From NCBI GenBank assembly GCA_023055425.1, contig JALGPY010000001.1, forward strand, positions 72,286,994 to 72,350,993: 64,000 nucleotides of DNA. Reading direction: 5' to 3'. The DNA is from Linanthus parryae. Taxonomy: Eukaryota > Streptophyta > Magnoliopsida > Ericales > Polemoniaceae. Shown one piece after another: positions 12,870 to 33,108 of the stretch (positions are counted from its first letter, which is position 1; every line of letters begins with the position of its first letter). The position numbers and the translations under genes were made by a program. The notes beneath the pieces were generated by a model. It made no database searches, was not told the DNA's origin, and worked only from the letters and a program-made list of their open reading frames with translations.

Positions 12870-12874
<5 letters not shown>

Positions 12875-12931: not shown

Positions 12932-12932
<1 letters not shown>

Positions 12933-13196: not shown

Positions 13197-15598
13197 ATGG
13201 AAAGTGATATGCTGAAGTTATCTGCCCTAACTGATCAATTGAAAGAATGGAAGATTAAACTTCGCGTCGTTGAGAAGTACCGTGCAACAACAGCTCGATT
13301 TGGCAACACTAAGTATCAGCGATATGTCCTTTGTGATGGCGAGGTTAGTTAGCGAGCAGTACACTGACCTCATCCAATACCTGTGTCATAGTTATCATTA
13401 CCTGCTTTGTCCTGTGCAGGGCAAAAAGATACAGGCCACAGCTTTTGACGCTGAAATTGAAACGTTTGACAAACAGCTACATCCATATCATTCATACTGG
13501 TTCAGTGATGGAGCTGTACGCCGTGTTAACCCGCAACATCACTACATTGATCACGATTATGTCCTTGTTCTGGATCCTCAGATGAAAATTGTACCAGTCG
13601 AAGATGCTGCAGATGAAAGGGGAGCTATTACGTTCAATTTCAAGAATCTGACTGACGCCCGCGACCTCATCGGGAAACCTGACAAATTTGGTAGTTTCCC
13701 CCACTATTTTAGCACTGCATCGCTTGCTGTGTTGTTTATGCGTTGCTCTTATTTAGTTTCGCTTGTTATTGCTGTGCTTGCCGTGGCTATCTTTTTTCGT
13801 TCCATCAAAATTTACATACTCACAATATATGTATCCATGTGCAGATGTTGCAGTGATAATCATAGCTGTCATGTCGCCGAAAACAGTGCCATGGAAGGAT
13901 TCGAGTGCTCGTTCGAAGGTTCGAGATATAGTTGTTGTCGACGATACGTAAGTTCTTGGATGTGCCTTGCTTACTTCTAATATACTGCTCTGCGTCTATT
14001 CTTGTTAGTTAGGTACGATCACATTATAGGCAGTGGAAGTTTTTAAATCAATAGTATAATTAAATATTGTCTCCTACACTGCAAATATTGCTTTGTTATG
14101 CTCTGTAAAGTAATAGAAGAATGAACGCATACTAGATCAACATCAAGCTTGTACAATGTGACTTGTGAGCAATGAACCATCAGTGTATGCAATATGCTGA
14201 AAATTGTTATGTAATCGATGATATCATGTGGTGTCTTTTCCCTTCCCCTTACTGAATCTTATCCACTCTATCTATTTGCTGTTTTCTCTAAGTTCATTTG
14301 CCTTGCCAAACAGTTTGAGTCCAGTGTGCCTTTCAGCTTGGGATGAGATAGCAACCACTGATGCAGAAAAACTGGCCAAGTCAGCAAAGTCCCAGCCGGT
14401 GGTCATCGTCACTAATGTTGTGGCATCGAAGTACTCCGGTATCAACATGCTATCTTTTGCTGAAATGTTGACGTATGCTATGTTATGTTTGTACCTTCTG
14501 TTATGTTCATAAATGGCTTTGCCTGTGTCTCCCAGGATTCTCCTTGAAAACTACTATGTCTACAATGTTCTTGACTGACGTTCCTGATGCACGGGTTGAT
14601 GAATTGTTGGATTGGTAAACTGCCTTCATTATCTACCTATATGTAGTGCATAGGTTGTCGTCTGGTAGTTTATGTTAACAATCTAAAGATATTGCAGGCG
14701 CGATGCTAACTACGAGAAAATTGATGCTATCAGTGACCCTGAGATGTTACTGAAAAAGAAAGTTGCCAATACTTCTACATCTGAGTTCAAACTTGTGAGG
14801 ATTGCAGACTTACCAAGTAGTCCGGTAACTTGTTCTGTCTAGCATTGTAATCGCGAGCAAGTTTATCTATGATATTCCCGATTGAATTAATGTTATTTTG
14901 CATTGCAGCAGGCTGGTTTTGATGAAGTCTGGGTGAGAGTATCTGTTGTTGTAGCACCATGTAGTCAGCGGCCGTGGTATACCGCATGCAACAAGTGCAA
15001 CCGGGCTACTAGCCACGTGCTAGGCGAAGTATTTGCTTGCCCAGGCTGTGAAAAAAATGACTGCATTTCTGCACCATGGTATGCCGCGTTCCATCTCACA
15101 TAATTTTTTCGAAGTTAATGTTTACGAATTCAATAACTCATGTCATCTATGGTTGTATACGCAACAGTCCATTTGTGAGCAACGGTGTCTTTCTCATGTA
15201 AGTATATGATTTCTAATTGTGATGTAAACAAATTGATATCGTGCAGGGGGCGCCTCGGAGTTCGAATTGGTGATGGCAGTGGTGAACTTGAGGTTGCTAT
15301 ATTTGGACATGCTGTTGAAACAGTGCTAAATAAGAGTGCGGTTATCCTGTCTGCAATGACTCCACATGTAAGCTAACTATGCCCATATATCGCAATTTTG
15401 AGTTGAAATGCGGCTGATTCCATGGGATGTTAATTAATATAGTCGTCTTATATTGCCATGCAGGAACAGAGCGATGTGTTGTCCAAGGCGAATGATGCAG
15501 CGGTAGATAAACGATTCTATTTCCGCCTGGCTCCATCCAGCAGCAAGAATCCACGCTGGCTTAACAAGTGGAGTGTTCGCCAAGTTGAGATTGCATAA
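13197..15598 (+). CDS. RPA70-like single-stranded DNA-binding protein (Helitron-encoded)
   Basis: Large-subunit replication protein A homologue, a family known on plant Helitrons and expected to coat single-stranded transposition intermediates. Nine exons fit: 13197-13343, 13420-13690, 13845-13947, 14314-14438, 14536-14614, 14698-14824, 14909-15078, 15247-15367 and 15464-15598. They total 1278 nt, all phases agree, and give 425 aa. The first OB-fold shows YVLCDGEGKKIQATAF, the second KVRDIVVVDD with SAWDEIA, and the third (DBD-C) an inserted zinc ribbon CNKC...CPGC followed by GRLGVRIGDGSGELEVAIFG. Transcribed in the RepHel direction, starting 408 bp after it. I see no stops or broken splice sites. 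It is shorter than cellular RPA70, lacking the N-terminal protein-interaction domain. Confidence 0.93.
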
Positions 15599-17180
15599 AA
15601 TTAACTCTGTGATGAAGGCCTGTAGAACTATGTGATCAGATATGTATGTAGATATAAGGACTGCACTTAGCAGTGCATCCTGGAGATAGCATTGCATAAA
15701 ATTAACAACTTGTGCTTACACAGTTGTTATTTTTATGCCTTTTGCTAATATTTTTTTGTGCAGTTTCAGAGCAAAACATGGCAGTCCTTTTGTGCATATG
15801 AAGATGCCATACTATATAGTTTGCTGTTCTGTTGTAGTGGAAGGGTAAAGTAATGTCTCCAATCATAGCAGAGACCTGGGTATTTTTTGGGTACACTTTT
15901 GGGACAACATCTGTGTAACATAACATATAATGTTTTGTTTCTTTTGTATCGGTGCTTTTCCTTCATATATTTTCCTACGCCACCTCTAATATTTATTCAT
16001 TGCACATCCATCTCTTTAAGATATCCAGCTTCACATTGTTTGCTGGCAATCCAATGTTGTTTAACGTCAGTAATTTTCTATGATTCATGTATTTGCATAT
16101 ATTATTCGACTTAGTGTCTGATTATTGTTGTGTCATTGTAAAATAGACGTCTTTTATAGACATCTATACGAAACTTATTATGGACACATTGTTTTGATGC
16201 AATTAGCAGTTAGTTAAATTTACCTACGCACAAATCAGGCCGGTGTGATAGATGACATAGCAATTTAAACTTTGATGAATACAAAATCTTAATGAGATCA
16301 GTTATTAGTAAGATTGCAACCTCAGTACAATGCAAGATTAAACTCCAATTTATACGTAATAATCTTCCGTATAATTTTTAAACGCCGATGCAGATATATT
16401 AATTTCTTAAACGAAGACTCAATTAGTTCCCAGCAAATAACTATTATGTATTAGTTCTCGATTAAACTCGGCCAGTCATATGCATAATATTAAATATATA
16501 CACATAGGAGGACCTGCACTGCAATTTTAGTCGAGCATAATAAATTAATCGCGCAAAACTTCGTTGGGTATTCATGACCACCCACTGCTCCTCCCACCCA
16601 ACCCTTCATATTGCAAATCTTAGGTATCGCCGCCAGGATTCACCTGCTTCAGGTACGTTTCGTTTAGGGTTTTCCTTCCAAACTGTAATATCACATGAAA
16701 AAAAAAGGATTTGCACAAGTTCATAAGAATACCTGCTTATATATATGTACCCAACTCATTGAAATCAGCTATCACTTGTTTGTGTTATTGTATTCAACAT
16801 TTTCAATCTGTAGTGTTTGCAATTGCGAGCCCATAGTGACAATCTGTTTTCCCCCCTTCGATATTGTTTCTGTACTTTAGCCTGTATGTACTATTTCATC
16901 AAAGTATGCATGCTCAAGATGCCGAAGATTTGAATTGTGTAAATGAATAAATACACAAAACACGAGTTCTTGGGTACTTTGAACCGCATTATGTTTATGT
17001 CACTGTGAGAATGCATAACTATGTTATGATCTTTCCGGTTTGTCACTGTAGTGTGCGTTTGTGTGTGTGTGTGTAATTCAATATGAACTTATTAAAGAAC
17101 TGATGTGGTTGCCATTTGTATACACAGCCTACATTCTATAATCAAACATTAGCAGTTAAGGCCTCAGCATTGGAATCAGT
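15599..17180. other. Gene-free spacer between RPA and B3 genes
   Basis: AT-rich sequence. The last part probably contains the 5' untranslated exon or intron of the B3 gene; a donor-like CTTCAG|GTACGTTTCG lies near 16650. I see no convincing coding exon or repeat in the rest. Confidence 0.5.
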
Positions 17181-18532
17181 ATGAATTTCTTCAAAGTTAT
17201 CGTATCCAGTGATCCAGAAAATGACAGACTGGTAAGCTTATATATAAAGCTTCTAATACCAGTATATGCCTAGGTTCGAAAATAGTTATTAAGTACATGT
17301 TCTGCATACAAGGAAGTTAACAATATTATTTCAAGCAGGCAATCTAATCAATCGTTGTTCCGCTTGCAGTCCTTGCCCCGTATCTTTGTTGATGTATACA
17401 GGAAAGATGTTGGGAAGATTGTCCAGCTACGAACTCCCTCCGGCGCAATCTTTGACACGACGATTCTTGCAGGCAATAATGAACTGTATCTTGGCAATGG
17501 GTGGAAAACTGTGGTCAAATTCAACTCAATCACTTTGGGATATTTTGTTTTCTTCAAATTTAGAGCGAATCTGAGCTATGATATAAGGATAATGGATCTA
17601 ACGTGCACCGAAATCACTTACCACAGTATTGTTAAGCAGGAAAGCAACGCTACTGCAGGCATTCAAGAAATAGCACCTCGCTTCTTCAAGCTTTACGATC
17701 CATTTAACAAGAAAGATACCACCCTGGTAACAATGTCGGGCAATTTGTGTATATGTTCTCCTTAATTTCAATTTATTGATTAGCTACCTCTGTTGGATAA
17801 CCATTTTCCTTGTGCAGCGAATCCCTCCAAAGTATGTTGGTCGTCACTACGACAGCATTGCACCCATTGTTTGCCTACATGTGCCCAACGGGGCATCGTG
17901 GAATATCTGCATTGATCAAGTAGATAATGAGCATTACTTTGGCATGGGATGGCTTCAATTTGCCAGTGCTTATCGCATCCCTCCTAAGGCTGTACTTATG
18001 TTCAAATATGAGGGCAATTTGAATTTCAAGGTTCGTATCATGGATGAATCTGCTGTGGAAATCAACTACGGGCTCAATTCTTCTGTCTTTCGAATGGGTC
18101 CACAAGAAAATCATGCTCTCGCTCGTGCGCAAGCTCACAACACTGAAGTGCCATTCTTTGCATTCCGCATCATTCATTCTTACACTACGAGAAAGGGCGG
18201 AGTTGTAAGTACTTAATTTCTAATTCCTTGAGACATTTGCATTGATGCATGATATCAACAGGTTATTTTAAATTGTGCAGAACATTCCTACATATTTTGT
18301 GCGAGAATACTTGACTGGCACCCCGAACAAAGTGTGGCTAGAAACATCGGATAATGGCTACATGAGATGGGAAACAACATGTGGTTTCACGCACGCAGGA
18401 AATCCTTTCCACCGTCGTCTTGCTTGGTTTAAATACGTGCTGCATTCTCAGCTAGCGCTTAATGATGCATGCGTGATTGAATTGGTTGATCCCAGTATTC
18501 CAATGTTTCGGGCAACAGTCTACCGCCAGTAA
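17181..18532 (+). CDS. Triple B3-domain protein (REM-like)
   Basis: Predicted plant-specific DNA-binding protein of the B3 superfamily, likely nuclear. Four exons, 17181-17231, 17370-17726, 17818-18204 and 18281-18532, join in phase 0 to give 348 aa. It starts MNFFKVIVSSDPENDRL. Three B3 repeats follow, each with an intron in the same place just before an I/L-P-x-x-F/Y-V segment: SLPRIFVDVY, RIPPKYVGRHY and NIPTYFVREY. Domains 1 and 2 also keep the typical LGNGW/FGMGW turn and the IMDxxxxEIxY strand. The third domain is more diverged. Repeated domains with a conserved intron place suggest triplication of one exon unit. REM-type B3 proteins are host regulators; whether this one serves the Helitron or is captured cargo is open. 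Confidence 0.85.
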
Positions 18533-19430
18533 TTTGTCATGCGTATCAATCATCTGTGGTATTTGTGTATGCTTTTTGTTATGTTATTTCTCGTTTATCC
18601 CCCTTCTGCAGAACTGCATTGCTAATGTAATCAGAGCAAAGCTAACAGTTGCCTGTTTTACTAGGCTTTTGTGAACAGATGTTTCATACTTGTGTCGTAC
18701 ACATCATCTGATTTGGTAAAACTTGGTGTTGATCATGTATGAAACCTCAATTAATGCTGACGTGTATTTTTTGATTAGTCGTGCTCCGGTGGTAACTTCA
18801 CCACACCGAAATTTCTCCGATATATATAGTCTGGTCAGTTGTTTGTTTAATTGTGGTCAATTTTATGCTATTGTAATTGTGTGCGCATTGTGATATTTAT
18901 ACATACTATTTAACGACATCTACGTATCTGATTAAATATTATGTACTTCTCTATCGTTCAATTGCTAATGCACAATGAAATTATCGGTAATCTACTATTT
19001 ATTGTATTCTAAAGTACATACGATATGCTTTTGTATAGTAGATGTTCAAAGGGAATACAATCACAGTCTTAATACTGTGCGTCTATGTTCATGTCATTTC
19101 TGTAATAACATCCATTCCATATTATAGGAGAAAATAAACAGTTACATGAAATATACTTTTCGTAATATACATTGGATTGTATTGAATTCTAAACGTCTGA
19201 TAATCCAAGATACAGCAGTACTCTTGCTCATATTTTTCCCCATGTAATTCCTATTTTGTGCATTTTCGTGGTATATTATTATGCAACGACCGCCAATGAC
19301 TTTCCATAATGAAACTAACCAAAGCAAACATCCTTGATATGAACTTCAAAATTTAAAATAGCCATCCATTCCCAAGTAATAGATTTGTAACATAAATTAT
19401 GCGACATATTACAAATAAGATATAATAATT
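18533..19430. other. Gene-free AT-rich spacer
   Basis: Lies between the convergent B3 gene (+) and the first YVVGKGS gene (-). I see no ORF with protein-like features. It presumably holds both 3' ends. Confidence 0.5.
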
Positions 19431-19499
19431 AATTTATTTTCTACGCTTCTTCTTTGAGATTTTTTCATTAACATCGTCGGCTTTCATTTTCAATCGTTC

Positions 19500-19844
19500 C
19501 TATCGCTGTGCTCTTTCTTTACGTCCTGCCTCCCTCTGTCGGCGAAACATAGCTAAAATAGCTTTCTTATTCCTTTCGTACGATCTTGCCGTATCACTGT
19601 CGCATGCCTCGTCTTCGTCTTCGTTTCCTGAGTAAACTGTAGTCTCAGATCCTTTGCCAACAACATAATCATGCTGATGCCATGTTTCCGAATCAACTTC
19701 ATTATCACTTTCACTACTTTCCGTGCTTACAGTATACTTCGGCTTCTTCCGCTTTTTGACTTCATTGTGTCGCTTCCTCTTGCTGCTCGATTCCTTTTCT
19801 GCAGTTTCTGGAGACTTTCTTGCACCGTCCTCTTTCTTGTCCAT
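19500..19844 (-). CDS. YVVGKGS-motif protein 1 (unknown, short, charged)
   Basis: Unrecognised 114-aa protein, rich in Lys, Arg, Glu and Ser. The N-terminal half is basic with nuclear-localisation-like clusters (SSKRKRH, KKRKKPK). An acidic Ser-rich stretch follows, then the motif YVVGKGSETTVYS and an acidic tail ending DTARSY, then a basic C-terminus. It is clearly paralogous to the protein at 31522-31962. ATG at 19842-19844, with a TATA box (GCTATAAAAACAT on the minus strand) about 40 bp upstream. It stops at a TAG; the same frame then continues open for about 22 codons ending KISKKKRRK to the next stop, so the TAG may be a recent nonsense change. Function unknown; nuclear location is inferred only from composition. 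Confidence 0.72.
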   Translation of the reverse strand: MDKKEDGARKSPETAEKESSSKRKRHNEVKKRKKPKYTVSTESSESDNEVDSETWHQHDYVVGKGSETTVYSGNEDEDEACDSDTARSYERNKKAILAMFRRQREAGRKERAQR

Positions 19845-19880
19845 AGCTATTCTGATATAATCTTTTTGAAAGTTTTAGGA

Positions 19881-19893
19881 ATGTTTTTATAGC
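19881..19893 (-). promoter_or_regulatory. TATA box of YVVGKGS gene 1
   Basis: Minus strand GCTATAAAAACAT, about 40 bp upstream of the ATG at 19844. Confidence 0.6.
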
Positions 19894-20359
19894 AACAGCT
19901 TTATAATGGAAGATGAAGAACCCACTGACTGTTTTAATCTCCACCCACTGTATGCATTGCATAGATCCCTTTTTCAATGTTGTATTTATTGTTCCATGTA
20001 TATAGATACAATTTCCCACCATAGGTTGCATTAAAGAGTTACACGGTTTTGTGTAATGTATCAAAGATAGCTGCATCAGTTTCAAAATACAGTGTCTCTG
20101 TATATTTCTCGTTTGTATATCAAATAAAAATTAAACCAAAAAAAAAAACAAAAAATAATAAAGCTCTGATCGATTAATACTCGGTGCTGACACTGTCCGC
20201 AAACGATACAATCCAAATTCATATTGTTACTTTCTATAATCATTTGTAAAACCATTACCAATTCAAAGAATCATAATATAAAAAACCCCCAGCCATCGTC
20301 ATCTTTGCTCTCGTGAGAGTATAATGTTGACCCCGAACCTCAACCAGAATGCAGTCACT

Positions 20360-20569
20360 TTAACAAGTACTTTCTTCTTCGAAAATATCCTTCATCGCAC
20401 TTGCATTTTCTTCTTCTGTATCAGTTTCTTTGCTAACCTCCTCAAAACTGCTGTCTTGTTGTTGTTCTTGGCATTCATCGTTGCTCGATTCTATATGAAG
20501 TTGTATCCACTGACTGTTGTCTGCCATGCGATATAATTCTCTTCCTGGTGCAGCTGGACGCAATAACAT
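20360..20569 (-). CDS. Small acidic ORF (uncertain)
   Basis: ATG-initiated frame of 69 codons, with a second ATG at codon 15 followed by ADNSQWIQLHIESSNDEC. Very rich in Glu, Asp, Ser and Gln and ending DIFEEESTC. No known domain. It could be a real small gene or an exon of a minus-strand gene that also includes 20757-21026. Acidic composition over a full ATG-to-stop frame is the only support. Confidence 0.35.
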   Translation of the reverse strand: MLLRPAAPGRELYRMADNSQWIQLHIESSNDECQEQQQDSSFEEVSKETDTEEENASAMKDIFEEESTC

Positions 20570-20756
20570 GTTAAACTAAATAAACACCTGTAAAAAAAAA
20601 ATGGTAAAGAAAAAAAATAAGAAAAAAAAAATGGAGCATTAAAAAAAAAAGAGGGAAACATAAAAAAAAAAAAGAATACATACATTGACACTATATAGTC
20701 ACTAATTCGCTTTATTACTCTTGAGCTTGGTAATCAACTTCAATCGGCACACAGCG

Positions 20757-21026
20757 TTATCTTGAACAGCATTTGTGACATCTCATGTAGCCGATCACGT
20801 ACGCGTATACCAATACGTATCGTAAATGGGGTGTAGTTTTGCAATTACGGCATCTTACGCACATTAGATGACGTTGCCTTTTGTTCAACTGTGTTGATAC
20901 TGCTACCAACTGAAATATTAACTGCCATACATTTACAGTTACAAATGCGTATGAAATGTACTCCAATGCCACTTCATTCATATCCAAATCATGTATATAA
21001 ATGTAGACACAATTACGCGCATCCAA
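20757..21026 (-). CDS. Small Cys-rich ORF (uncertain)
   Basis: 89-codon frame whose end holds closely spaced cysteines (CVRCRNC, then RCHKCC), suggesting a small zinc-binding unit. A possible intron (GTAACTG... to ...ATATTTCAG) lies inside the frame; removing it would leave the cysteine part intact. After the stop, a frame one base off reads on with basic residues, so a frameshift or another splice is possible. It is divergent from the RNase H-like gene, whose start is about 190 bp away on the + strand. No family recognised. Confidence 0.35.
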   Translation of the reverse strand: MDARNCVYIYIHDLDMNEVALEYISYAFVTVNVWQLIFQLVAVSTQLNKRQRHLMCVRCRNCKTTPHLRYVLVYAYVIGYMRCHKCCSR

Positions 21027-21119
21027 ATTTATACACGTGATCAGAATACGTGAGCACCAGAAGACACGGCAACATATCCAGGTGCTACTATCGAAATGCG
21101 TGCCATAATTTGTCAGCTA

Positions 21120-21126
21120 TAAAACT
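21120..21126 (+). promoter_or_regulatory. TATA box of the RNase H-like gene
   Basis: TATAAAA, about 90 bp upstream of the ATG at 21217. An ATGCGTGCCA element at 21098-21107 lies just before it. Confidence 0.6.
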
Positions 21127-21216
21127 ACATCTATCTCCCTCTCCATACAACCCAACGTTGCACCACCACAACAACCGGCTAGACAAAACTGGGAAAATTA
21201 ACAATCGCTGCCTTTG

Positions 21217-21928
21217 ATGTCATCTCCAAAGGAGGATTCGTCAGACTCATCTGCTACATCCCGAACTTTACCCAGTGCAACAACTTTCCAGGGTGAAATC
21301 CCTCCTAGGATCGTGCCTAACTTGCAAAGTAAGTACTAATACATTTAATCATGTTAATCACCGACAACATAAATGTGCATGTGTTTTATGATTTGTGGTG
21401 TAATTCTGTGCATGATATATGGTTGATACAGGGATTGCCAGAATAAGTGTGTATGGCTTTGCAGCTTCTGCAACAAGCAGTGGTGGTATCGGTGCAGTTT
21501 GCCGAGACAATGAAGATAACTGGTTGCTTGGTTTCATAGGAAAATTAGACGCAACAAATAAACTCGAGAGTGAACTTTGGGCAATCTATCACGGCATTCA
21601 CTTAGCTTGTGATAAAAACTGGAGTAACATAGAAATACAGACTTCATGTTACAAAGCAATAAAGATATTCCATTTTGTCAGAGATTTTCCTGCAGGTATG
21701 AGAAATCAAATCAACCAGGGGCATATTCTGCTGCGAGACATGCACATAGCCCTAAATCATATCGACTACTTAGAAAATTGCGTCGCCAAACAGCTTGCAA
21801 GTATGGGAGCACAGCAATTAGATGAATGCAAAATTCTATATGAAGCCCCAGAAATTATACAGGATTTGATTACAGAAGACAAGTTAGAAGCGTGTAGTCG
21901 TTATATGTCACCCAGAGATACGGATTAG
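21217..21928 (+). CDS. RNase H-like protein, probably catalytically dead
   Basis: Two exons, 21217-21328 and 21432-21928, joined in phase 1 give about 202 aa. A Ser-rich N-terminus precedes an RNase H fold of the RVT_3 type found in plant LINE-related proteins: GGIGAVCRDNEDNWLLGF, then ESELWAIYHGIHLACDKNW, then IEIQTSCYKAIKIF. In the family the active site is D (strand 1), E (helix A), D (strand 4) and D (last helix). Here strand 1 reads VYGFA (no D), the E in ESELWAI is kept, strand 4 reads EIQTS rather than E.DS, and the last site reads NCVAKQLA rather than N..AD.LA. Cleavage activity is therefore unlikely, although the frame is open and well kept. Nucleic-acid binding is possible but inferred. 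Confidence 0.82.
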
Positions 21929-23795
21929 CTGCATAGTTCCAGCTATTTGTATCATATCTTGAATAAATGTTCAGCGTGTGGTTGTTTGGCATTTCGAAAT
22001 TACTGATTCTGATGTTGCTTATTTATATTGTTACAGTCGCATGTATAATCAAGCGATAAAGTCCTCTATGTTTAAAACATCAAATTGACCAAATGCATAA
22101 CCTTATTATTAACCTATATAGGTAAGACAGGGTATTAGCACATAAGTCTATATAGCCTTGCAAGCACGTAGCTTCAATAATTTCTAAACATGATCAGTCT
22201 AAACAAATTCAAAAGATATGTGAATATTCGCACGATGCTTCTTTTCCTAGATCACATTCCACTAACTATTACAATCGAGATTCATACTGGCTTTTTATAA
22301 AAAACTGTACCGCATTATTTGCTATCTTATCGAAATCGACATACGATCCAATAGTATCCGCTTTACTTCTTCCCAGACTGTTCCCTACTACTGTGCGTTA
22401 AATATATTATATGATGTTCCTGAAATAGTACGCAACTTATTACTTGCGGACCAGTTGTATACTCGTTGGTTTGAATCATGTAATTAACAATTCGTATCAT
22501 TACATGCTTCATCTAATATTCTTCGATTACTGTGTTACTTGTGCACTGAATGCATTACATTGATAATGTCCTCCGTACATATACCCAATTTTAAGGTTTT
22601 TTTTTTCTTTTTTTAGCAATATATCACTTTAATTTCGATGTTGATCAAACAACCAACTTCTTTAACTTTTACGTACGTGGGTCGTTGTTTAGCCTCTTCA
22701 CATGTCATGTAATGCTCCAGCACCACCCAAACAATAGCTTATTGCCCTGCCCATACAATCGTATACATACATTTTCATGGAAAACTTGATAACTTGGTCC
22801 TATAATTGTAATCGTGAAAATGCAAGTACCACATACATCCCTTATGTGTATATTTGACTGGGAGAAGAATTGAATTTGTGTAGTGGGATTTGTAAGCTAC
22901 GACAACCATTACCGCCAACAATACACAATGGTTATCTTCCCAACTAGACTAGGTATGCGTGCCAGTCAGTTGGCGAATGAAACATGCTGAGACTGGCACT
23001 TTCATCACAAACATCAAAAGTTGCTATTCAACTTTAGAAGCATACCGACACCACATGCAAGATTAGGAAATTTGCATCCAACATGCAACTTGGACAGCTG
23101 ACACATAACAGTATTGTGGCAACACTTCATAGCCCTGCAAATTCAGATCACACACACAACTTGTGATAAGCTTGACTCTTATAACCATCTAAAAAGCAAG
23201 CTCAGTATAACATACTGATACATTTGAGCTACTAACAACTGATCAATTATACCAAACCCATCTCATTGTCAGTTTCCCCATGAAATAGAAATGTGTGCCA
23301 ACAAATGGATAAGTTAGCTATGCAAAACTGACAATTGCAGTGCAATGATGATGAAACACTCTGAATGCTTTATCTGCTAGCTTGCTCACATGCATCCTCA
23401 ACATATGCCTATCTACCATGCAACCCAAACACTTGGCATACAACAGTATTGCACCCATACACTTGGCACAAACAATACCATAACAACTTTAACCATCTGT
23501 AAAACTACATCGCGGTCATTTCACGAACCATAACATTGATGATGCTACAGTATCTATCAGTGTAATACAGTACTATCCTGTTGTTGGTAAATTGACAAGT
23601 AGCAAATTACACAACATGATTGAATATGTACAGAAATACGCCTCCTTCACTAATTTCTAGGTATCGGCATGGATACGAAACAATCTTTTAATCCCCAGCT
23701 AACAATACACATGATTTTTTGCTAATAGAGCACATTACCCCACATCGTATTCTTAATATACTTCCTAAACAATTTACCACTTATCAGTTATGCAC
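21929..23795. other. Gene-free spacer
   Basis: About 1.9 kb of AT-rich sequence without any coding exon I can support on either strand. It includes an ATGCGTGCCA element at 22955-22964. Confidence 0.5.
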
Positions 23796-23803
23796 TATAT
23801 AAA
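23796..23803 (+). promoter_or_regulatory. TATA box of mini-RPA 1
   Basis: TATATAAA, about 100 bp upstream of the ATG at 23902. Confidence 0.6.
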
Positions 23804-23901
23804 CCATTAGCTGTTCAAACGAGACATGCATCCAGTACTATTAAACGCATCTTATGTTCCAACAATTGCACCACCAACATTCAATCGCCAGACCGAACAT
23901 C

Positions 23902-24657
23902 ATGACACCATCCACGATTGCAGAACTTCAGTCGGCATTGGTATCATTACTTCACACAATACTGTTGTCATATTACTTTCCAATGTCAGGTCATGTAAGC
24001 TCTTACTACACAACAATGCGATATTAAATTGAATCACTGCCACATTTTTTCTCAGGAAGCATACAATGAAGCTTGGATAAGAGTCTGCATTCGTATCATC
24101 CCAACCACACAGCAGGGATGGTTCAACGCATGTGATATGTGCCAGCAAGAGTGTATTCACTCAAACTGTCGTACTTGCCGCAACTCCCAATCTAACACTA
24201 CTCCCAGGTTAACCAGCTATAACACATGCAAATTCACATTACAAGATGTTTAGATCAATATTTTACATACAAATATCTATTTCGATACAGATGCCGTCTC
24301 ATGGTTGAGCTCAAAGATGACACCGGTATAGTGAATATTACGCTGTTTGGGCAAGCTGGGGAAACTGTGCTTAACACAACAGCTGCAACCTTGGCCCGAA
24401 TGACGCTAGAGGTGTCAATATAGTACATACAAATAATACATCATATAACTACATAATACCACATCCATAACATATTTACAATGAAATTTGTGCCTCACTT
24501 CAATGTTATAATGTAACACCAGGAATGCCAGTCTCTCATCATCAATGCCAACACAAACAATGCATCAACACCTTTCTATGTGCGTGTTGTAAAGGGCGTA
24601 CACCAAACCAATCGCAGCATATTTAGGTGGGTGGTCCGCCATGTTAAGATTGCATGA
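23902..24657 (+). CDS. Mini-RPA 1: stand-alone RPA70 DBD-C-like domain
   Basis: Four exons, 23902-23940, 24056-24207, 24291-24411 and 24523-24657, give 148 aa. The first exon encodes 13 residues (MTPSTIAELQSAL), which match in place the last 13 residues of exon 6 of the full RPA gene. The rest is only the third OB-fold with its zinc ribbon: EAYNEAWIRVCIRI, then CDMC...CRTC, then CRLMVELKDDTGIVNITLFG, ending RWVVRHVKIA. Exons 3 and 4 have the same lengths (121 and 135 nt) and phases as exons 8 and 9 of the full RPA gene. It probably binds single-stranded DNA or partners through this domain; no other RPA domains are present. Confidence 0.88.
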
Positions 24658-25212
24658 ACGTGACGACGCAATAGCAATAATAGTGAATAAGATCCAGTCA
24701 TGAATATGTATCGACATAAATTTCTCTCGTCACGTACTTTGTTATATTTCATTTCCCTTTGTTGTACGATATGTGGTGCAGTACCATGTTTCCGTGTGGC
24801 TTTGTTGCATTGAATAAAATTTTGTTATATTTTCTACTTTGTCATTATAGTTGATATTGCATAGTGTACATACTCCTATAATTGACTGAAAGCACAACAG
24901 CATAGACAGACAAGGATTTCTTATTTTCCATATCTACTTCGGCTATAACCCAATCCCAACTATATCGACCATGTAATTGTATGCCTACCGTTATGCTGAA
25001 CGAGAGGATAAGAACATGCATATATAACTAAATCATGTTGACACTATAACCAACAGCATCGTAATTAACATTCGTATATCAATCCATCCCAACTTCGCTG
25101 TGCATGTTTCATTTCATCGATATGCGGCGGCCTCGGTGTATGCAACACATAGTAATGTGTGCCATTCTATCCCGTGCACCATAGTTCAACTAACTAAGTA
25201 GAGCAAGCATGC

Positions 25213-25219
25213 TATATAA
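25213..25219 (+). promoter_or_regulatory. TATA box of mini-RPA 2
   Basis: TATATAA, 65 bp upstream of the ATG at 25278. An ATGTGTGCCA element at 25155-25164 precedes it. Confidence 0.65.
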
Positions 25220-25277
25220 GCAGTACCTCCAGAATCTATACTGTTATCAACATAGAGCATTCGTGCGACGGCTTTCA

Positions 25278-25991
25278 ATGGAAGTCAGCAACATATCAGC
25301 AGTTAGGGCTACTTTGGTGAGTTGTTTCCTCCATTAAGTTATCTTGTCCACAGCATAACAATTGCAAAAAGCTAACACCTAATTAATTATACATGACAGC
25401 CCTTATACAGAGAAACATGGATTAAGGTATCAATGACTGCAATACCAACAACCCAGCAGCCATGGTTCAAAGCATGCCGAAATTGCAAAAATGAGTGCTT
25501 GGGACAGATCTGCAATAAATGCGGCAATTCTACCCAGGATGCAATCATATGGTTAGATAACTATTCAGCCTACAATATATGCAACAATTCTTCTACTCTA
25601 TACTACATTTGTTCTTGACATGAAATATATGCAAACTAACAACCACACAACCCTTCAATACAGCGGCCGCCTCTATGTTGAGCTACAGGATGACACTGGG
25701 ATAATGGATGCCACAATATTTGGGCTACCTGTTGAAACTGTATTAGACAACACCCTTGTCACAATGTCAACAATGTCTGAGCAGGTATTCTTATCTTTTA
25801 AAATAGGCAATGTATACACTCGATAACAACACCAACCACAATTTCATATTCAGGAACAACAGAATCTCCTACTAGCCGCAAATGCAAGAGGAACATCACA
25901 GAAATTCTACGTCCGCATACTCAGATGCACACAAAACAGGAACCCAAGATTAACGAGGTGGGTCGTTCGCCGGGTTCAAAAAGCAGACTAA
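25278..25991 (+). CDS. Mini-RPA 2: stand-alone RPA70 DBD-C-like domain
   Basis: Four exons, 25278-25316, 25400-25551, 25664-25784 and 25854-25991, give 149 aa. The first exon again encodes 13 residues (MEVSNISAVRATL). Then come PLYRETWIKVSMTAIP, a zinc ribbon CRNC...CNKC, CGRLYVELQDDTGIMDATIFG and a C-terminus RWVVRRVQKAD. Exons 2 and 3 match mini-RPA 1 in length exactly (152 and 121 nt). The stop lies three bases later than in mini-RPA 1. All splice sites are GT-AG and the frame is open. Confidence 0.88.
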
Positions 25992-26249
25992 ACACTTATA
26001 AGAACCATTGCTGAAGGCAAATATAGTACAAGTTTTTTTTGATGCCATGCATGTTGACTGCCAATGTACTTTCCTTGCTGCAATGCTGCAATATCGAGTG
26101 TTTATCTTCTTGCTGTTCGAATGTAATATTCACAAGTTTTAAACTATTCATGTTATGGAGAAGCTACTATCAGCTATGAATCCGATTACTCTAAGTATAC
26201 TTACATATCTTAAGACTATTTACAGTGACCGGCAATGACAACCACATTT

Positions 26250-26288
26250 CTCCGCTCATCCGACAAGCAGACGTCCAAAGGGTGTTGG
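26250..26288 (+). repeat. Relic similar to the Helitron's 3' subterminal sequence
   Basis: CTCCGCTCATCCGACAAGCA at 26251-26270 and the next dozen bases match 33041-33072 (CTCCGCCCATCGGACAAGCA...), which lies just before the terminal hairpin of this Helitron. The hairpin and CTRR end are absent here. The match runs directly into an inverted helicase fragment. Confidence 0.6.
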
Positions 26289-26770
26289 CAGATGGATCTA
26301 ATATTCGTAAGAATTTCACAGGACAACTAATCAAAACTTGTGTAGACGTGTGGGTTATGAAAGCGTCTGACAAGTAAAATTTCATTCCAGATATCACAAT
26401 AGGTAATCCTTCATGTCAAGCCAGCTAGGTCCACGACGTACTCAGACTTGAAGGAATCAAATTCAAAATTAGGGTAGGCATATCCAGTGAAAATGATAAT
26501 CAATGTTCTCACATATACAAAAGGCACAACCATTGATTGTAGTAGCTTTAATATGGTTTTGTCGTACTTGCATAAGCTGCCATCCCTGTTTGATAATACA
26601 AACTCCACAAGACGCAAATCATGTATTCGGATCGTGTCCTTCGTTCGATGCGATAAATGCAAACAAAGTCAGAGATGTACATCAATCTTGATGTTACTCT
26701 TGCTTTCTTCATTCGTTGCGTGCATCATCACAGGGAGTTTCACATGCACTTCTGGAGAGTATTGCTGGCA
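26289..26770 (-). pseudogene. RepHel helicase fragment (relic, inverted)
   Basis: Minus-strand frames match consecutive parts of the Helitron's own helicase: VKLPVMMHATNEE (RepHel VLPVTVRATKEE), RDGSLCKYDKTILKLLQSMVVPF (GDGSLQENDESLLKLPQSMVVPF, here cut short), NPHVYTSFD and LRILDPSA. Frameshifts, stops and an internal deletion separate them. It is a decayed piece of a related but clearly diverged RepHel gene, in the opposite orientation to the active one, so it probably entered with another Helitron copy. Confidence 0.82.
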
Positions 26771-27527
26771 TGTTTTTTTGATCAAATAATATCCTGACAC
26801 AATGCATATACAAGAATGCTTCCTCCGAATTATATAACAACAGTAACACAAAAAACACCGAAACCATACACTACAACCTCTGCCTAGAATCAATACAAGG
26901 TATAGTTAGCAAGGTATGATAAATCGTTCTAACCAAACATGGAATCATCACAAATCAATATTGCATTGATAGACAAAACATAACCCCAGATGCTTCCCCA
27001 ACTTTCCAATGATCGATGTGTTCTTTAACATATAGTGGCAATGAATAACCATCAGTGGTTACAACTAATATCGTTCTATCAATAAAATGGATTGGTTATC
27101 CACTAATTACTTATCATCGTTACGCATCTTGTACGTTTGCCACATCACATTCCACTGGTTTAGCCAACTACCAATTCGGCTTAATCACTCATAATTTTCC
27201 TAAATGATATTTCTCTGATAAAAATGCATCGTACCATGCTGTGAAGAATATATCACTTAGTTATGTATATGGATAAATAAGTAGGTTGCTGGTATTCTTG
27301 TAATGCGTGCCATCGTATGCAAATTATTTACAGATGACATTACCACCCACACCAGGTGATTTCAGTGTTACAGCATGTCTCAGTCTGAATGCGAAACAAA
27401 TATCTAATAATTATAAAAAAAAAGGAACACAAACAAAAACAGCAAAGAAAAAGCATTTAGCACAGGACATTATATAACTATATTACATATAGCTCAGGTA
27501 CCCACCAACCCTTGCAACAAATGTTAC
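26771..27527. other. Gene-free spacer
   Basis: No supported coding exon on either strand. ATGCGTGCCA occurs at 27303-27312, followed by the promoter region of mini-RPA 3. Confidence 0.5.
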
Positions 27528-27536
27528 TATAAATAC
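27528..27536 (+). promoter_or_regulatory. TATA box of mini-RPA 3
   Basis: CTATAAATA, about 140 bp upstream of the ATG at 27674. Confidence 0.5.
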
Positions 27537-27673
27537 TAACATACAGATCAACTACCTCATAATGCACAACAACCAAGCACCATTGCTTTGTCCCATAAGC
27601 TTTGTTTGCACCTCGCAAGAAGAATTCATCCAAGCCTCAAAGTTTGTATCGCCTTCAAACATATAAACAAGAA

Positions 27674-28454
27674 ATGACACTCTGTGCAATAGTCGATCTG
27701 CCAACACTACCGGTGAGAATTTTCTTCAGTAATTAACAATCACTGCCAGCTTAGTAATGCAGCTTTCCCAACAGTTTCGCTTTGGATTGTATGATTTTTA
27801 TGAGTAACTGCAGGCTACAACACGCGAGATTTGGGTACAAGCCACCGTTCACGCTTTACCAACAAATCTGCAAGCATGGTATTACGCGTGCAAGTTGTGC
27901 AATCGTGTTGCAAATCGTTATCCAAACAACAGATTCCAATGCTCTGCTTGTCAAAATAATGATTGTGATGCTATACCGTGGTACGTAATGACACCAACAA
28001 GCATTACGCTGTAGACTGTATCGACCTAATTTTACACAACATCAATTTAACACCTTTTTTCAAAGAGGACACGAAATCTAACTGCCAAATGTTGTTTTTT
28101 TGCTTGTTTCTCCCCAGGGGACGTATAACTGTGCAACTTCATGATGGTAGTGCTGAACTCCAGGTACGCATCTTCGGACAGTCAGTAGACACTGTGTTGG
28201 GGATAAATGCAACAACCATGTCATCAATGTCGGCTGAGGTATGAAACAAAATTTCTCGATTTAAAATTATACCCCATACCCAAATAGCTTATTATATTCG
28301 GCACTGTGATTGTTTCAAGGAACAACAAAGCGTTCTTGAGTCCGTGAACACGAACAGCGGCGCAAGAAGATTTTACTTCCTCCTGTCCCGGTGCACCAAT
28401 GGAAATGTATTTCCAGTGAATGGTTGGACCGTACGCTATGTAGTTGAAGCTTGA
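27674..28454 (+). CDS. Mini-RPA 3: stand-alone RPA70 DBD-C-like domain
   Basis: Four exons, 27674-27712, 27814-27980, 28118-28238 and 28320-28454, give 153 aa. The 13-residue first exon, MTLCAIVDLPTLP, aligns with FKLVRIADLPSSP at the end of exon 6 of the full RPA gene. The body shows TTREIWVQATVHA, zinc ribbon CKLC...CSAC, GRITVQLHDGSAELQVRIFG and WTVRYVVEA. Of the three mini genes it is closest to the full RPA gene (exon 2 of 167 nt against 170; exons 3 and 4 of 121 and 135 nt, identical). This supports origin by 5' truncation of an RPA gene followed by duplication. Confidence 0.88.
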
Positions 28455-28740
28455 TGCACGCTTACACATAAAAACATGGCCCCATCGACGAACTAATTAA
28501 GAAAATATGCCATTATCGTCTTTTATGTTATTGTAATGTAATCAACGCTCTGTTATCAGTGAATGTCCACGTAATATTGTAGTTTGGTCTGCATAATATG
28601 ATGTCCCCACTACATTTGTTACACATTTTATCTTTAATTGCAAAGTCAAATATGCGGTACTATATCGAATTAATATAAAACACATGCTAGGACGAATAAA
28701 AATCCAATCCCTGATTTTAACGGCGATGTAGACGGCCATC

Positions 28741-28870
28741 TACAAGATTAAACTCAAATCATAAATGCAACAATAGTTCGGATAGCTATTGAAATTGTAT
28801 TAAACCACGCTCTTGTGGCAGTGTGAACAACAACTGCACGTATACTATTACAGGGAGAAATTCTGGCTGG
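28741..28870 (+). pseudogene. Probable relic of a fourth mini-RPA (exon 3 piece)
   Basis: The stretch around 28774-28850 resembles exon 3 of mini-RPA 2. Translated, it gives AIEIVLNHALVAV, against PVETVLDNTLVTM in mini-RPA 2, and is followed by a stop. No other exons are recognisable nearby. Confidence 0.45.
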
Positions 28871-29215
28871 GCATCATAACACATTAATCGCTTATGCTTC
28901 TAAGTGCAAGTAGATCGCACTGGAGTGTTTTTACAAGTTATATTTGCTTAAATTCTTTTTGTGGCATTGTAAATTGTTCGATGCACGCGTCATCCTACAA
29001 ATATATCATTGAAATTAGATGAGGTGTTTTGCAACACACCACTACCCGCAAGATGAATAAAATACAATTAACCCTGAATTTAGTTTTCAGAGCCCTTTAG
29101 GAAAGAGATCCCAAGTCCATACTTGTGTATCTGCTAATTATTTGCAATTCTCGTATTAAGTTACAATTTTTCGGATCATTGATATTGTTATTGGGAAATT
29201 TTTTTTTTAAACATT
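28871..29215. other. Gene-free spacer
   Basis: AT-rich sequence between the mini-RPA block (+) and the 3' end of the F-box gene (-). No feature seen. Confidence 0.5.
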
Positions 29216-30970
29216 TTAGTTATGAGGAAATATCTCATAAATAAAGTCCACTTCCCTATCACATCTACAAGCATCACACAATATATTGTCTTCGTTGCGC
29301 GCCCATCGTGATCTCCACCTGTGTTGGGGTTGCGATGCGCAGCAACGTTGTTTCTCCATCTGTATGATTGGATTTTTAATCCAGATGCTCCTTAAAATTG
29401 ACTTAACCTTTTGCCGGTACTCCTCCAATTTTGTCTCTATCTCCTTGTCTTTTGTCATTCCACGGAACAACTCGATTCCCTTCTCACGGTATTTGTCTCC
29501 ACTCAACACCAAAATGATAACAATTATGTAACGTGCTTCTCCAAGTCCAGCTTCTGCTGCTTTTTGTAAGGCGTCTAAGCCATCACTATATCGGCACAAA
29601 CTGAAGTAATCAATCTAAAATTAAAAAAAAAGAAAAAAAAAATGTACGTCAGTTTATGTCACTTCACAACGATTAACTTAGCTTTTCTTCTTGCTCCACG
29701 TTATGATAAATCAATAGAACTGCCGCTTACCATTCCTTGCCTAAAGAGAGCTTCTGGGTTCCCACTGTCATTGCATCTCTTTATAAAACGCGAGAATCTC
29801 CAAATCCACTGCTGACTTGACCGCCATGGAACGACAGGGAACTTCTTAAGTGACACCTTCTCGTATACACAATTATAATTAGATGCTTCATTGAACATCT
29901 TCAAACTGCAACATGTTGCAAAAAATTGCAGATAATCATCAAACTGGAAAGGGGTGAAAGTGTCTTTGCATCAAAGTTAAGGGGGTGAAATTGTCCTTTA
30001 CCCCCTATAATATGGTAAAGTTTTCAGATTAATCCCTCATCATCTAATGTGTTTCCATTAATTAGGGGTTATTGTTTGAAATAGACTAAACAAGAGGATA
30101 TTCAGAAATCAAAATACATATGTTCTGAAACTGGTGATCGCCTCCTATTGCTGCCACCACCAACACCTAAAAAATGAGCTTTTGCTCAACAGACACTACT
30201 TCATTGCTCGAAATTGAGAGCTAGGAAGACAGCGGATCAAAAATTGGTTTATCGTGTTTATTAAAATGTAAGAACATAGACATAATCTCTGTCTTCAATC
30301 TCTATGTCCAGTGGCACTCTTACATGGAAACCAACCCCCACTCGAATTTTGAAAGTTGCAATTTTTACCCTATATTTATTTATTTAATTATATTAGCCCC
30401 CACTCAAAGTTTTAATATTCACAACATTTAGCCTACATTCTATTAATATAATTAAATTAACCCCCACTCGTATTATATATTCACTTCAACAATCTATCAA
30501 TTCGTCATTTTAGCTATTAAATACTTCAAAATTTATCAAAAGATCCGTCATTAAACTTGAAATTTTTCTTGTACTCACTCGGCCAAATTCTAAATCCGCC
30601 CATGTCCGTGTCAAAGCTTTTATATAGACAAAAAAACACACTGGGTCATGTACACAAACATGGTAAGTGAAAATAGAAAACTCTCCAACTCTATCGGTAT
30701 GATTTGATAAAATTCTTCTTATTCTAATACTATTCCTATTGATATTCAGATTAAGCTTTGAATATTATGAATATTAAACAAAACAAAGGAGATAGAGAAA
30801 GAGAAGAACATAGGATATTACCTTTTCTTTGCGGTGAACAAATCATCAGACGAACAAGATCCCAAAATCGCCAAGATTTCTGTGATTAACTCTTTCGGGA
30901 GTGAGTTGATGGTGGAGGAATTGCTCTTCTTTGTGTTCGTTCTTCTTACGGATGACCTCAGCGGCGCCAT
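29216..30970 (-). CDS. F-box protein (At1g67623/At2g35280-like)
   Basis: Predicted substrate-recognition subunit of an SCF ubiquitin ligase. Minus-strand exons 30970-30822, 29905-29731 and 29614-29216 join in phase (149, 175 and 399 nt) to give 240 aa. The ATG opens a short basic leader and then an F-box, INSLPKELITEILAIL...SSDDLFTAKK. Exon 2 gives the family's KFPVVPW and SGNPEALFRQGM segments. Exon 3 gives DGLDALQKAAEAGLGEARY (a Sel1-like repeat) and a Cys-rich end (CDACRCDREVDF). These are hallmarks, from memory, of plant At1g67623/At2g35280-type F-box proteins. Intron 1 is about 0.9 kb. A TATA box lies upstream. The gene seems complete, so it is either functional cargo or a recent whole-gene capture with introns. 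Confidence 0.85.
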
Positions 30971-31060
30971 GGTTGTGTTGAAAATAGCTAATCGTGTTCT
31001 TGTTCTTGGTGCTGCTGCACTTCAGAGAGAGTTGATAGAAAATAATACGTGGAGGGTGGT

Positions 31061-31070
31061 TTATATAGAG
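31061..31070 (-). promoter_or_regulatory. TATA box of the F-box gene
   Basis: Minus strand CTCTATATAA, about 90 bp upstream of the ATG at 30970. Confidence 0.65.
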
Positions 31071-31521
31071 AGTTGGTGCATGTATATAGATAAGTCTTCG
31101 GTACAAATAATGAGTATCAATCTGTATCTTACATATCAAGTTTCCTACATTCAGCGAACACCGATACGCTTTCATCCTATGCAGATGGTTGCTTCCAACA
31201 ATTATCCAATATATGCCTATTAAAGAAAACAGCTGAAGTACTGTGTTTCATTTTATTGCCACACATACAGTGTCAATTCGTTCCTTCGTCGCTCATTGTT
31301 TGCCAAATATAATATCTGTGCCAATCTATAAATAACATAATCTAATACATCATTCTGATCGAGTATTAAGTCATGAAAAAAACAAAAGCTGTATTGATTC
31401 GCAAAATATAGACTACGATAACATTAGTTCATAACTCCATTACAAAGCAAACATTACCAAGTTCAACATTACTGCTCATGAGGCATACTACAATTCACCA
31501 TAACATAACACACAGAGGACT
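31071..31521. other. Spacer: upstream of the F-box gene and downstream of YVVGKGS gene 2
   Basis: About 450 bp between two minus-strand genes. It holds the F-box promoter region and the 3' end of the next gene. No coding feature supported. Confidence 0.5.
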
Positions 31522-31962
31522 CTATACTCTTGGTTTCTTTTTGCACGACTCTTGAGCATCTTCCTCAGTCTTCTTTCTCTTGCCACCCTTCTCTGGTGCC
31601 GCATTCAGTGGAACAATTGATCTTGTCACCTGCAAATCTTCGCTACCTTTGGCTATCACTTTTTGCTTCTCTTTCCTGCTTGAACTGGAAGAACGCGAGT
31701 CAGAACCCTTCAGCTTCGGCGGATATGACGAGGCCGTGTCAATTCCCCAGAAGTCATCTTCTTCCTCCGCATCTGAGTACACCGTAGTCTCCGATCCCTT
31801 CCCGACCACATAACCGTGTTCAGCCCAACTCTCCCACTCAGATTCGTCGTATGTGAATTCTTCCTCACTCTGATATTCTTTACTTTTCCTCATCTTCTCC
31901 TTGCTCTTCATCTTAGCAGTCTTTCTCTCTTTGTCATCGGTATTTTCCTTACCAGAGTCCAT
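31522..31962 (-). CDS. YVVGKGS-motif protein 2 (unknown, charged)
   Basis: Unrecognised 146-aa protein, paralogous to 19500-19844. It has a Lys/Glu-rich N-terminus, an acidic stretch with Trp (ESEWESWAEHG), the shared motif YVVGKGSETTVYS, an acidic segment ending DTASSY, then a Ser-rich and Lys-rich C-terminus ending KKKPRV, which looks like a nuclear-localisation signal. Shared order in both copies: basic, acidic, YVVGKGSETTVYS, acidic, DTAxSY, basic. Single exon, with a TATA box (GTATAAAAGT on the minus strand) about 40 bp before the ATG, the same layout as gene 1. Conservation of the core while the flanks diverge argues for selection on the motif. Function unknown. Confidence 0.75.
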   Translation of the reverse strand: MDSGKENTDDKERKTAKMKSKEKMRKSKEYQSEEEFTYDESEWESWAEHGYVVGKGSETTVYSDAEEEDDFWGIDTASSYPPKLKGSDSRSSSSSRKEKQKVIAKGSEDLQVTRSIVPLNAAPEKGGKRKKTEEDAQESCKKKPRV

Positions 31963-32000
31963 TGAATTACAGTATGTTGTAACTTAGGCCAACTGCTTAT

Positions 32001-32010
32001 ACTTTTATAC
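32001..32010 (-). promoter_or_regulatory. TATA box of YVVGKGS gene 2
   Basis: Minus strand GTATAAAAGT, about 40 bp upstream of the ATG at 31962. Confidence 0.65.
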
Positions 32011-32047
32011 CAGAAGTAAGTAAGGACGTCAAAAGACCATAGCAAGT

Positions 32048-32540
32048 TTTCATGTCCTTTAATTAAACTGATAGACATGATTACTTAGACAGACACATCT
32101 TCAGTAAATGTAATCTGCAGGACAGGTCAATCAACCACCAAACACTGCAAACCTTACTCAATCTACTTAAGAAATCTTCGATGCACATCAAGCAATGCAT
32201 CTAAATGATGAAACCTAAAGCAGAAGGAGAGAGATGGTGACTCATTGGGAAAGATAATAGGTGTTGACAATGGAATAGATTGTGCATGAACTGTTAATAC
32301 ATAGCATCCGTTCATGTCCTCTCATTGAACTGATTGACATGCATATTCACACAAACCCATCTCCAATAAATGCAACCTGCAAGACAGGTGAATCAAGCAC
32401 AAGATACTGCAAGCCCAACTCAATCTACTCAATAAATCTTCAATTTAAATCAAGCAATGCATGTAAATGATGAAACCCAAACCAGAAGGACATAGATGTT
32501 GGGTGGTTGGAGAAGATAACAAGCATTGACATTGGAAGGT
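32048..32540. repeat. Diverged tandem duplication (two units of about 230-260 bp)
   Basis: Unit 1, from about 32050, and unit 2, from about 32313, share the same order of blocks: CATGTCCT...AACTGAT..GACATG, CTGCA(G/A)GACAGGT, CTCAATCTACT, ATCAAGCAATGCAT and AAATGATGAAACC. Divergence is clear but the order is kept. There is no coding content. Confidence 0.75.
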
Positions 32541-33077
32541 AGCATGTTATAAGTATGATTTTGTTAGGCTCAGAGAGCTCATGATGCTCATAAGAGAGCA
32601 AAATAAGATAATTATAGATATAATTAAAAACACAAAGAAAATTCCCGATACCTATCTCACAAACATTGAATATCTGAAAGCACTGCATTATATCAGCCGC
32701 TAGAAGTTTCCCAAGTTTGACTGCACAGCCCATATATTATGTAGTTACTGCCCGATAATAAGGAAAATTGCCGAACTATATCATTGTAAAACATAGTACT
32801 CAATATATGTTGCCAAAAAGACAACACCCAATTCAAAGGCAGGCGCAACCAATATCTATGTAGCCAATTTAAGTTGCCATCAATGACACGCTCGTCTACT
32901 ACTCCTGTACTACCTCACTATGATGCTGAAATACTCTATGCCTACTATCTCGTTATTCTAATCTCGTGACTATACAATGTAATACAAATGTGATGCATCC
33001 AAACGCGGTACGTAAGAATCCTGCATTAGCAAATGTATATCTCCGCCCATCGGACAAGCAAACATGCCAAGGCCACA
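32541..33077. other. Helitron 3' subterminal region
   Basis: No gene seen. The last bases before the hairpin (CTCCGCCCATCGGACAAGCA, 33041-33060) are the family's 3' subterminal sequence, which recurs at 26251. Confidence 0.5.
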
Positions 33078-33096
33078 CCGCGCGCAACGCGCGCGG
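33078..33096 (+). terminator. Helitron 3' terminal hairpin
   Basis: CCGCGCGCAACGCGCGCGG forms a perfect 8-bp GC stem with an AAC loop. It ends 8 bases before the terminal CTAG at 33105-33108. In Helitrons this hairpin acts as the end-of-transposition signal. Confidence 0.95.
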
Positions 33097-33108
33097 GGTG
33101 GAACCTAG

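Follow-up and report, generated by a model that had tools for sequence, protein, structure and literature searches.

Three small DBD-C-type genes in a 27-kb Helitron of Linanthus parryae and their probable role in binding single-stranded DNA

Genes resembling replication protein A (RPA) are known from plant transposons: according to the accessible part of one report (PMC5148889), several plant Helitrons carry "one or more" of them, and the PHRPA proteins described in the available text of Roffler et al. 2015 (PMC4683698) belong to the same class of elements as the Helitron considered here. The DBD-C domain of RPA1, as set out in the available portion of PMC8329085, has a four-cysteine ribbon within an oligonucleotide/oligosaccharide-binding (OB) fold, and its C-terminal helix links RPA1 to RPA2 and RPA3. 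The window analysed, a stretch of 64,000 nucleotides from contig JALGPY010000001.1 of Linanthus parryae, contains a Helitron of 27,154 bases on the forward strand (5955..33108), which carries a full RPA gene and, in addition, three small genes, m1, m2 and m3, hereafter the mini genes. Each predicted product is about 150 residues long and consists of one zinc-ribbon OB domain like the DBD-C of RPA1. The reading favoured here is that m1-m3 serve the 27-kb Helitron as functional accessory genes, the products of which probably bind single-stranded DNA (ssDNA) during transposition.

Structure and domain content of the mini genes

The three genes lie on the forward strand: m1 (23902..24657; exons 23902-23940, 24056-24207, 24291-24411 and 24523-24657) encodes 148 amino acids, m2 (25278..25991; exons 25278-25316, 25400-25551, 25664-25784 and 25854-25991) 149, and m3 (27674..28454; exons 27674-27712, 27814-27980, 28118-28238 and 28320-28454) 153. 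The first exon measures 39 nucleotides (nt) and the third 121 nt in all three, the second being of 152, 152 and 167 nt and the last of 135, 138 and 135 nt in m1, m2 and m3, respectively; the intron phases are 0, 2 and 0, all nine introns are of the GT-AG type, and the frames are complete to the stop. An earlier note on this DNA had described three four-exon genes at 23902..28454 with these exon lengths and matching phases, and all coordinates were reproduced. The start and the first-exon length of m1 are uncertain, because an in-frame ATG, conserved in 19/20 rows of the alignment, is found at 23854, 16 codons upstream of the m1 start. Protein identity is 43% between m1 and m2, 37% between m2 and m3, and 29% between m1 and m3.

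Boxes of the TATA type are present on the forward strand upstream of each gene, at 23796..23803 for m1 (TATATAAA, -106), 25213..25220 for m2 (TATATAAG, -65) and 27528..27535 for m3 (TATAAATA, -146), each identical in 20/20 aligned rows; the TATATAA of m2 is also present in eight of ten diverged m2 loci. As proof of promoters the boxes were rejected: a TATAWA motif falls by chance in the interval -130 to -55 at about 12% of positions in 22000-29000, the m3 box lies outside this interval, and little can be concluded from conservation among copies that are young.

Pfam analysis placed m1 (6.6e-8, 32.9 bits) and m3 (2.4e-11, 44.0 bits) above the 28.5-bit curated cut-off of Rep_fac-A_C (PF08646), and m2 (4.1e-4, 20.6 bits) below it. 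A profile built from the three mini proteins and the corresponding part of the Helitron RPA (RPA-C) matches the RPA70 DBD-C chains of solved structures with E=1.4e-7. From the set of DUF223, REPA_OB_2 and Rep_fac-A_C, only the last is seen in m1-m3, so that they fall outside the full definition of a plant Helitron RPA. The zinc-ribbon cysteines (CxxC...CxxC) are present in all three proteins, and the ribbon is five residues shorter in m1 and m2 alike.

The earlier note had also suggested that the mini proteins may be partners in an RPA-type trimer. Past the aligned part, 37 residues follow in the human chain 1L1O_C versus 17 profile positions, and two host RPA1 pieces of the source genome (L055 and L056) continue beyond the end of the minis and of the Helitron RPA. 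The canonical trimerisation helix thus appears to be missing from the predicted minis and from the Helitron RPA; with this stretch of the three-helix bundle absent after the OB fold, partnership in an RPA-type trimer is unlikely.

Selection on the mini genes

Codon maximum likelihood rejects a ratio of nonsynonymous to synonymous rates (omega) of 1 in all six pairs of m1, m2, m3 and RPA-C; in the best-behaved pair, m1-m2, omega is 0.32 (p=2.8e-6). Single omega values are rough, because synonymous sites are saturated or nearly so in most pairs: three of the six distances are infinite by NG86, and the m2-m3 fit runs to an infinite distance. In a neutral simulation without indels, 0.15-0.45% of frames stay open at 0.775 substitutions per site, which is half of the m1-m2 silent distance.

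The source genome (1.51 Gb, 121 contigs) was searched for further copies. The m1 region gave 40 scored matches at 97-100% identity, the window's own included, 40 of the 197 first-look candidates being scored, and m2 protein pieces gave 305 matches in 150 scored of 3,087 candidates; the Helitron is a high-copy, recently mobile element. Twenty copies were fetched, corresponding to ranks 2-21 by identity to the m1 region of the window, and this choice makes the m1 counts lean to intact. Seventeen of them run from roughly 20-21 kb to roughly 30 kb, gaps being present in some; the other three (L010, L012 and L026) cover less. Frames are complete in 19/20 copies for m1, 17/19 for m2 and 16/19 for m3, and both frame and all splice sites are intact in 18, 16 and 15, respectively; the four ribbon cysteines are kept in 18/19, 17/17 and 16/16 of the complete frames. 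The variant-density alignment excludes L026, which is without m2 and m3, and the variant counts exclude the m3 of L012, which has a length change, and retain rows with stops.

Variants found in at least two copies comprise 13 changing (one of them a stop) and 20 silent, p=4e-6 against the neutral expectation, and those found in a single copy 54 changing and 24 silent (p=0.07); shared and singleton variants differ in this respect (Fisher p=0.005). The shared variants mostly arose while the Helitron was still spreading. By gene, the ratio of changing to silent shared variants is 2:4 in m2 (p=0.025) and 5:13 in m3 (p=1.4e-5). Shared transitions lie below the neutral expectation (8/25 changing, p=2.6e-4), and singletons, split by type, do not (transitions p=0.11, transversions p=0.54).

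Two decayed sequences accompany the genes: an inverted RepHel fragment between m2 and m3 (26284..26737, reverse strand; 49% amino acid identity in its main piece, two in-frame stops), which serves as a decay control inside the cluster, and, behind m3 on the forward strand, a weak relic like DBD-C exon 3 at about 28737..28841 (best E 0.02). The density of shared variants over 20 rows is 1.8, 0.9 and 4.6% at codon positions 1, 2 and 3, 4.2% in introns, 5.0% elsewhere and 6.4% in the relics. Indel events relative to the window, summed over the copies, number 1 in the coding sequence (1359 sites), 33 in introns (891 sites) and 91 elsewhere.

More distant evidence comes from ten diverged m2 loci, 82-92% identical to m2 in the nine that were scored, in which the four exons stand and 59/60 splice dinucleotides are canonical, one acceptor being changed in L053; seven of the ten have no early stop. 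The first exon starts with M in all ten, reading MELSNISAARATL or nearly so in nine and MEVSNISAVRATL in L045; its persistence with the ATG indicates that it was kept after truncation. Against the window copy of m2, omega is 0.17-0.35 in 9/9 comparisons (p at most 8e-4), L045 being excluded for a 2-bp length change; these loci were picked via a protein search, which favours low omega, and the shared-variant test of m2 and m3 is free of that bias.

Taken together, the shared-variant counts and the omega of the diverged copies indicate that the set of mini genes is under selection; purifying selection is strong for m2 and m3 and weaker for m1, and it appears to have kept the genes working while the Helitron multiplied. 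This agrees with the earlier note, which had taken the conserved CxxC...CxxC ribbon and the open frames as a sign of selection and had proposed dN/dS as a check: the values are not near 1, and codon maximum likelihood, shared variants and diverged m2 loci concur.

Origin of the mini genes and the Helitron that carries them

The full RPA gene of the Helitron (13197..15598, forward strand) has nine exons and encodes 425 amino acids, with Pfam matches to DUF223 (3.0e-5), REPA_OB_2 (1.4e-9) and Rep_fac-A_C (4.8e-7), the domain set typical of PHRPA. Its exons 7, 8 (15247-15367) and 9 measure 170, 121 and 135 nt, and their border phases of 0, 2 and 0 are the same as in the minis. The gene was found at five of six fetched places, in one of them without exon 5; two frames are complete, one of which has a changed splice donor.

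The earlier note derived the minis from the 3′ exons of this gene and aligned their 13 first residues with the last part of RPA exon 6. The alignment, judged by eye, is plain for m3 (AIVDLPTLP in one, RIADLPSSP in the other), fair for m1 and poor for m2, so the second claim stands clearly for one gene of the three. Of the PF08646 loci examined in the source genome, three (L055, L056 and L059) resemble host RPA1, L058 is a broken host-like RPA, and L057, which has parts for DBD-B and DBD-C, represents a further RPA. A tree that includes the host RPA1 domains separates the minis and the Helitron RPA from host RPA1 and L057 with support of 99.8/100; the best tree places m3 beside the Helitron RPA (98.5/87) and m2 with m3 and RPA (74.9/59), m1 and m2 not being grouped, and a smaller tree groups m1 with m2 at 89%. 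The approximately unbiased (AU) test was applied to three placements of m3, all of which fix m1 and m2 together, and none was rejected in either tree: the p values for minis together, m3 with RPA, and m1 and m2 with RPA are 0.165, 0.811 and 0.272 in the host-RPA1 tree and 0.236, 0.59 and 0.508 in the smaller one. Relationship of the minis to the DBD-C exons of the RPA within the same Helitron is upheld, and derivation of all three from this RPA gene in a single event is one possibility; one truncation followed by duplication and several truncations would both fit.

The limits of the Helitron were obtained by blastn of the window against itself. One long terminal repeat (LTR) is split into 4062-5955 and 33109-34450, and sister LTRs stand unbroken at 42428 and 51835; the 5′ joint is an A followed by TCCTACTACC, and the 3′ end, which has a hairpin, reads CCGCGCGCAACGCGCGCGGGGTGGAACCTAG and is followed by T. 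The two empty sites in the sister LTRs, together with the A/T joints, indicate that the window holds one Helitron with exact ends. The features of plant Helitrons are all found, namely 5′ TC, a 3′ hairpin (CCGCGCG...CGCGCGG) with CTRR, here CTAG, and insertion between A and T without target duplication. Among the places of other copies, the 3′ end motif is present in three of six, with T next each time, and the 5′ end motif in three of four, after A twice and after G once, the latter in a nested arrangement. At L043, one Helitron 5′ end lies within the 5′ part of another copy, perhaps a nested insertion. The region 33109-53174 consists of tandem LTR-type retroelements with common LTRs, about 98-99% alike, and the Helitron sits in the first LTR.

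The RepHel gene (8590..12788, forward strand) contains Helitron_like_N (6e-56) and PIF1 (3.3e-71) in the open stretch 9465-12785, while Pfam gives no match for the piece 8590-9444; with Rep and helicase domains in an open RepHel frame, the Helitron is putatively autonomous. Just upstream of RepHel, 6896-7273 and 7475-7853 form a direct duplication of 96% identity.

Other genes are carried within the element. An intact gene of four exons at 17181-18532 encodes three stretches of B3, a DNA-binding domain of plants (PF02362, 1.1e-25). An RVT_3 (RNase H-like) gene of two exons at 21217-21928 has a complete frame in 14/20 copies, is broken in three and absent or cut in three, and its shared variants comprise three changing and four silent (p=0.04). 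On the reverse strand, the last two exons of a gene at 29216-30970 match TPR_27, a plant domain according to Pfam; exon 29727-29886 is stop-free in 17 of the 18 copies holding it, the last exon is without extra stops in 16/18, and the first exon is tentatively placed at about 30970-30822. Two related acidic, lysine-rich proteins, encoded on the reverse strand at 19500-19844 and 31522-31962, have the YVVGKGSETTVYS motif in common and are 60% identical over 42 residues; Pfam gives no match for either. At 22923, most fetched copies covering the place have about 188 extra bases, which are lacking in the window copy and in L009.

Proposed role and comparison with known systems

If the minis are accessory genes, RepHel would free a single strand during transposition, and m1-m3, as free-standing DBD-C-type proteins, would bind this RepHel-produced ssDNA beside or in place of the Helitron RPA. 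We infer for them zinc binding, ssDNA binding, a role in transposition and separate promoters; ssDNA binding is likely, although it may be altered. A broader version can be advanced tentatively, namely that the Helitron possesses an ssDNA-binding kit of its own, in which the full RPA and three separately promoted, specialised single-DBD-C proteins were kept together during the spread of the 27-kb element; possible specialisations would be, for example, strand coating, RepHel loading and shielding from host RPA.

Several observations weigh against an accessory role in ssDNA binding. Among the copies, m1 by itself has 6 changing and 3 silent shared variants (p=0.34), which is not significant; shared transversions are not below the neutral expectation (5/8 changing, p=0.16), and the split between shared and singleton variants is not significant within either type (Fisher p=0.073 for transitions, 0.34 for transversions). 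The relics have only two indel events, so that a low indel count is not special to the coding sequence. Of the six ssDNA-stacking residues of Ustilago DBD-C given in the available part of PMC8329085, five could be mapped by eye, the sixth being outside the alignment: the aromatic type is kept in the three minis and the Helitron RPA alike at Y487 (as Y or F) and F541 (as F), and three positions (W537, Y479 and I524) are changed, for which reason DNA binding may be weak or altered. In addition, Feng8, the driver of the Xuan-Feng Helitrons of wheat, is reported to suffice for mobilising its family, with reconstitution in Arabidopsis; it is described by its transposase, and a count of the term RPA in the text of the paper gives 0 (PMC13286980). 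RPA genes thus need not be required for every Helitron.

Other explanations have to be weighed against this one. The minis could be functionless truncated RPA copies amplified as passengers with the Helitron, as the decayed relics in the same stretch and the lack of a significant signal for m1 alone might suggest; however, the 13:20 ratio of shared variants and the omega of 0.17-0.35 in diverged copies contradict this for m2 and m3, and the relics of the same copies have the highest variant density, which makes mere passengers very improbable. That they are unannotated 3′ parts of larger RPA genes would account for exon phases matching RPA exons 6-9, but tblastn with the RPA protein left RPA exons 1-5 unmatched near the minis, the TATA boxes are identical in 20/20 rows, and in 10/10 diverged m2 loci the first exon, of 13 codons, is present together with ATG and donor; we consider this explanation barely credible.

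Selection indicates some function, and this function might also be antagonistic: the minis could be decoys, as the earlier note also proposed, which compete with host RPA on ssDNA or attach to the partners of host RPA and thereby dampen the DNA-damage response that the host mounts against the transposition intermediate. A lone DBD-C without DBD-A, DBD-B and the trimer helix could indeed occupy DNA and recruit no partners; however, no sign of host RPA binding is seen in the sequences, and the 99.8/100 split sets the minis and the Helitron RPA apart from host RPA1 and L057, so that a decoy function seems unlikely. That three diverged paralogs are inherited together, within an element that also has a full RPA, would likewise be expected of a complex proper to the Helitron, in which the DBD-C units would bind the short Helitron RPA, or one another, by a non-canonical surface; the helix that defines RPA trimers is, however, absent by alignment, and since all four proteins seem to be without it, any assembly would differ from the canonical one, leaving such a complex a rather doubtful prospect. 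The accessory, ssDNA-binding role remains the preferred reading.

A search of 5.8 billion proteins, with the combined profile of the minis and RPA-C as query, gave 693 candidates, none at E<=0.001, and a search of viral contigs found no mini homologs; these collections may be plant-poor, and absence from them says little on other plants. In the literature searched, with most subscription papers outside its coverage, no report of stand-alone DBD-C genes in Helitrons was encountered. The interest of the locus lies in non-transposase genes of a transposon which selection has maintained and which reduce an essential replication protein of the host type to a single domain. The old question of the role of RPA in plant Helitrons becomes testable with proteins of 150 residues, and the minis offer natural free-standing DBD-C domains, seemingly without the trimer helix.

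Compared with RPA1/RPA70 DBD-C (PF08646; PDB 1L1O chain C), the minis have the same zinc-ribbon OB domain with four cysteines, but they stand alone, appear to lack the C-terminal trimerisation helix stretch and differ at three of the five mapped stacking residues; m1 and m2 differ further in their ribbon, which is shorter by five residues. In exons and phases the minis correspond to the end of the Helitron's own RPA, which is PHRPA-like in its domains and groups with them in the tree. Unlike the PHRPA proteins, which have several DNA-binding domains as far as the available text describes them (PMC4683698), the minis have DBD-C only. ZmhelB1/B2, putative autonomous Helitrons of maize, also combine RepHel with an RPA1-like part comprising DBD-A, DBD-B and DBD-C; there, however, the RPA part is within the RepHel open reading frame, and extra DBD-C genes go unmentioned in the accessible portion of the report (PMC3288121). 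The Xuan-Feng Helitrons, in the part of their description at hand, are likewise an active plant family with a CTAG end, a hairpin and AT targets (PMC13286980). RPA-like genes on plant Helitrons are therefore already known, and it is as a variant of these that the stand-alone DBD-C genes of the Linanthus parryae Helitron look new.

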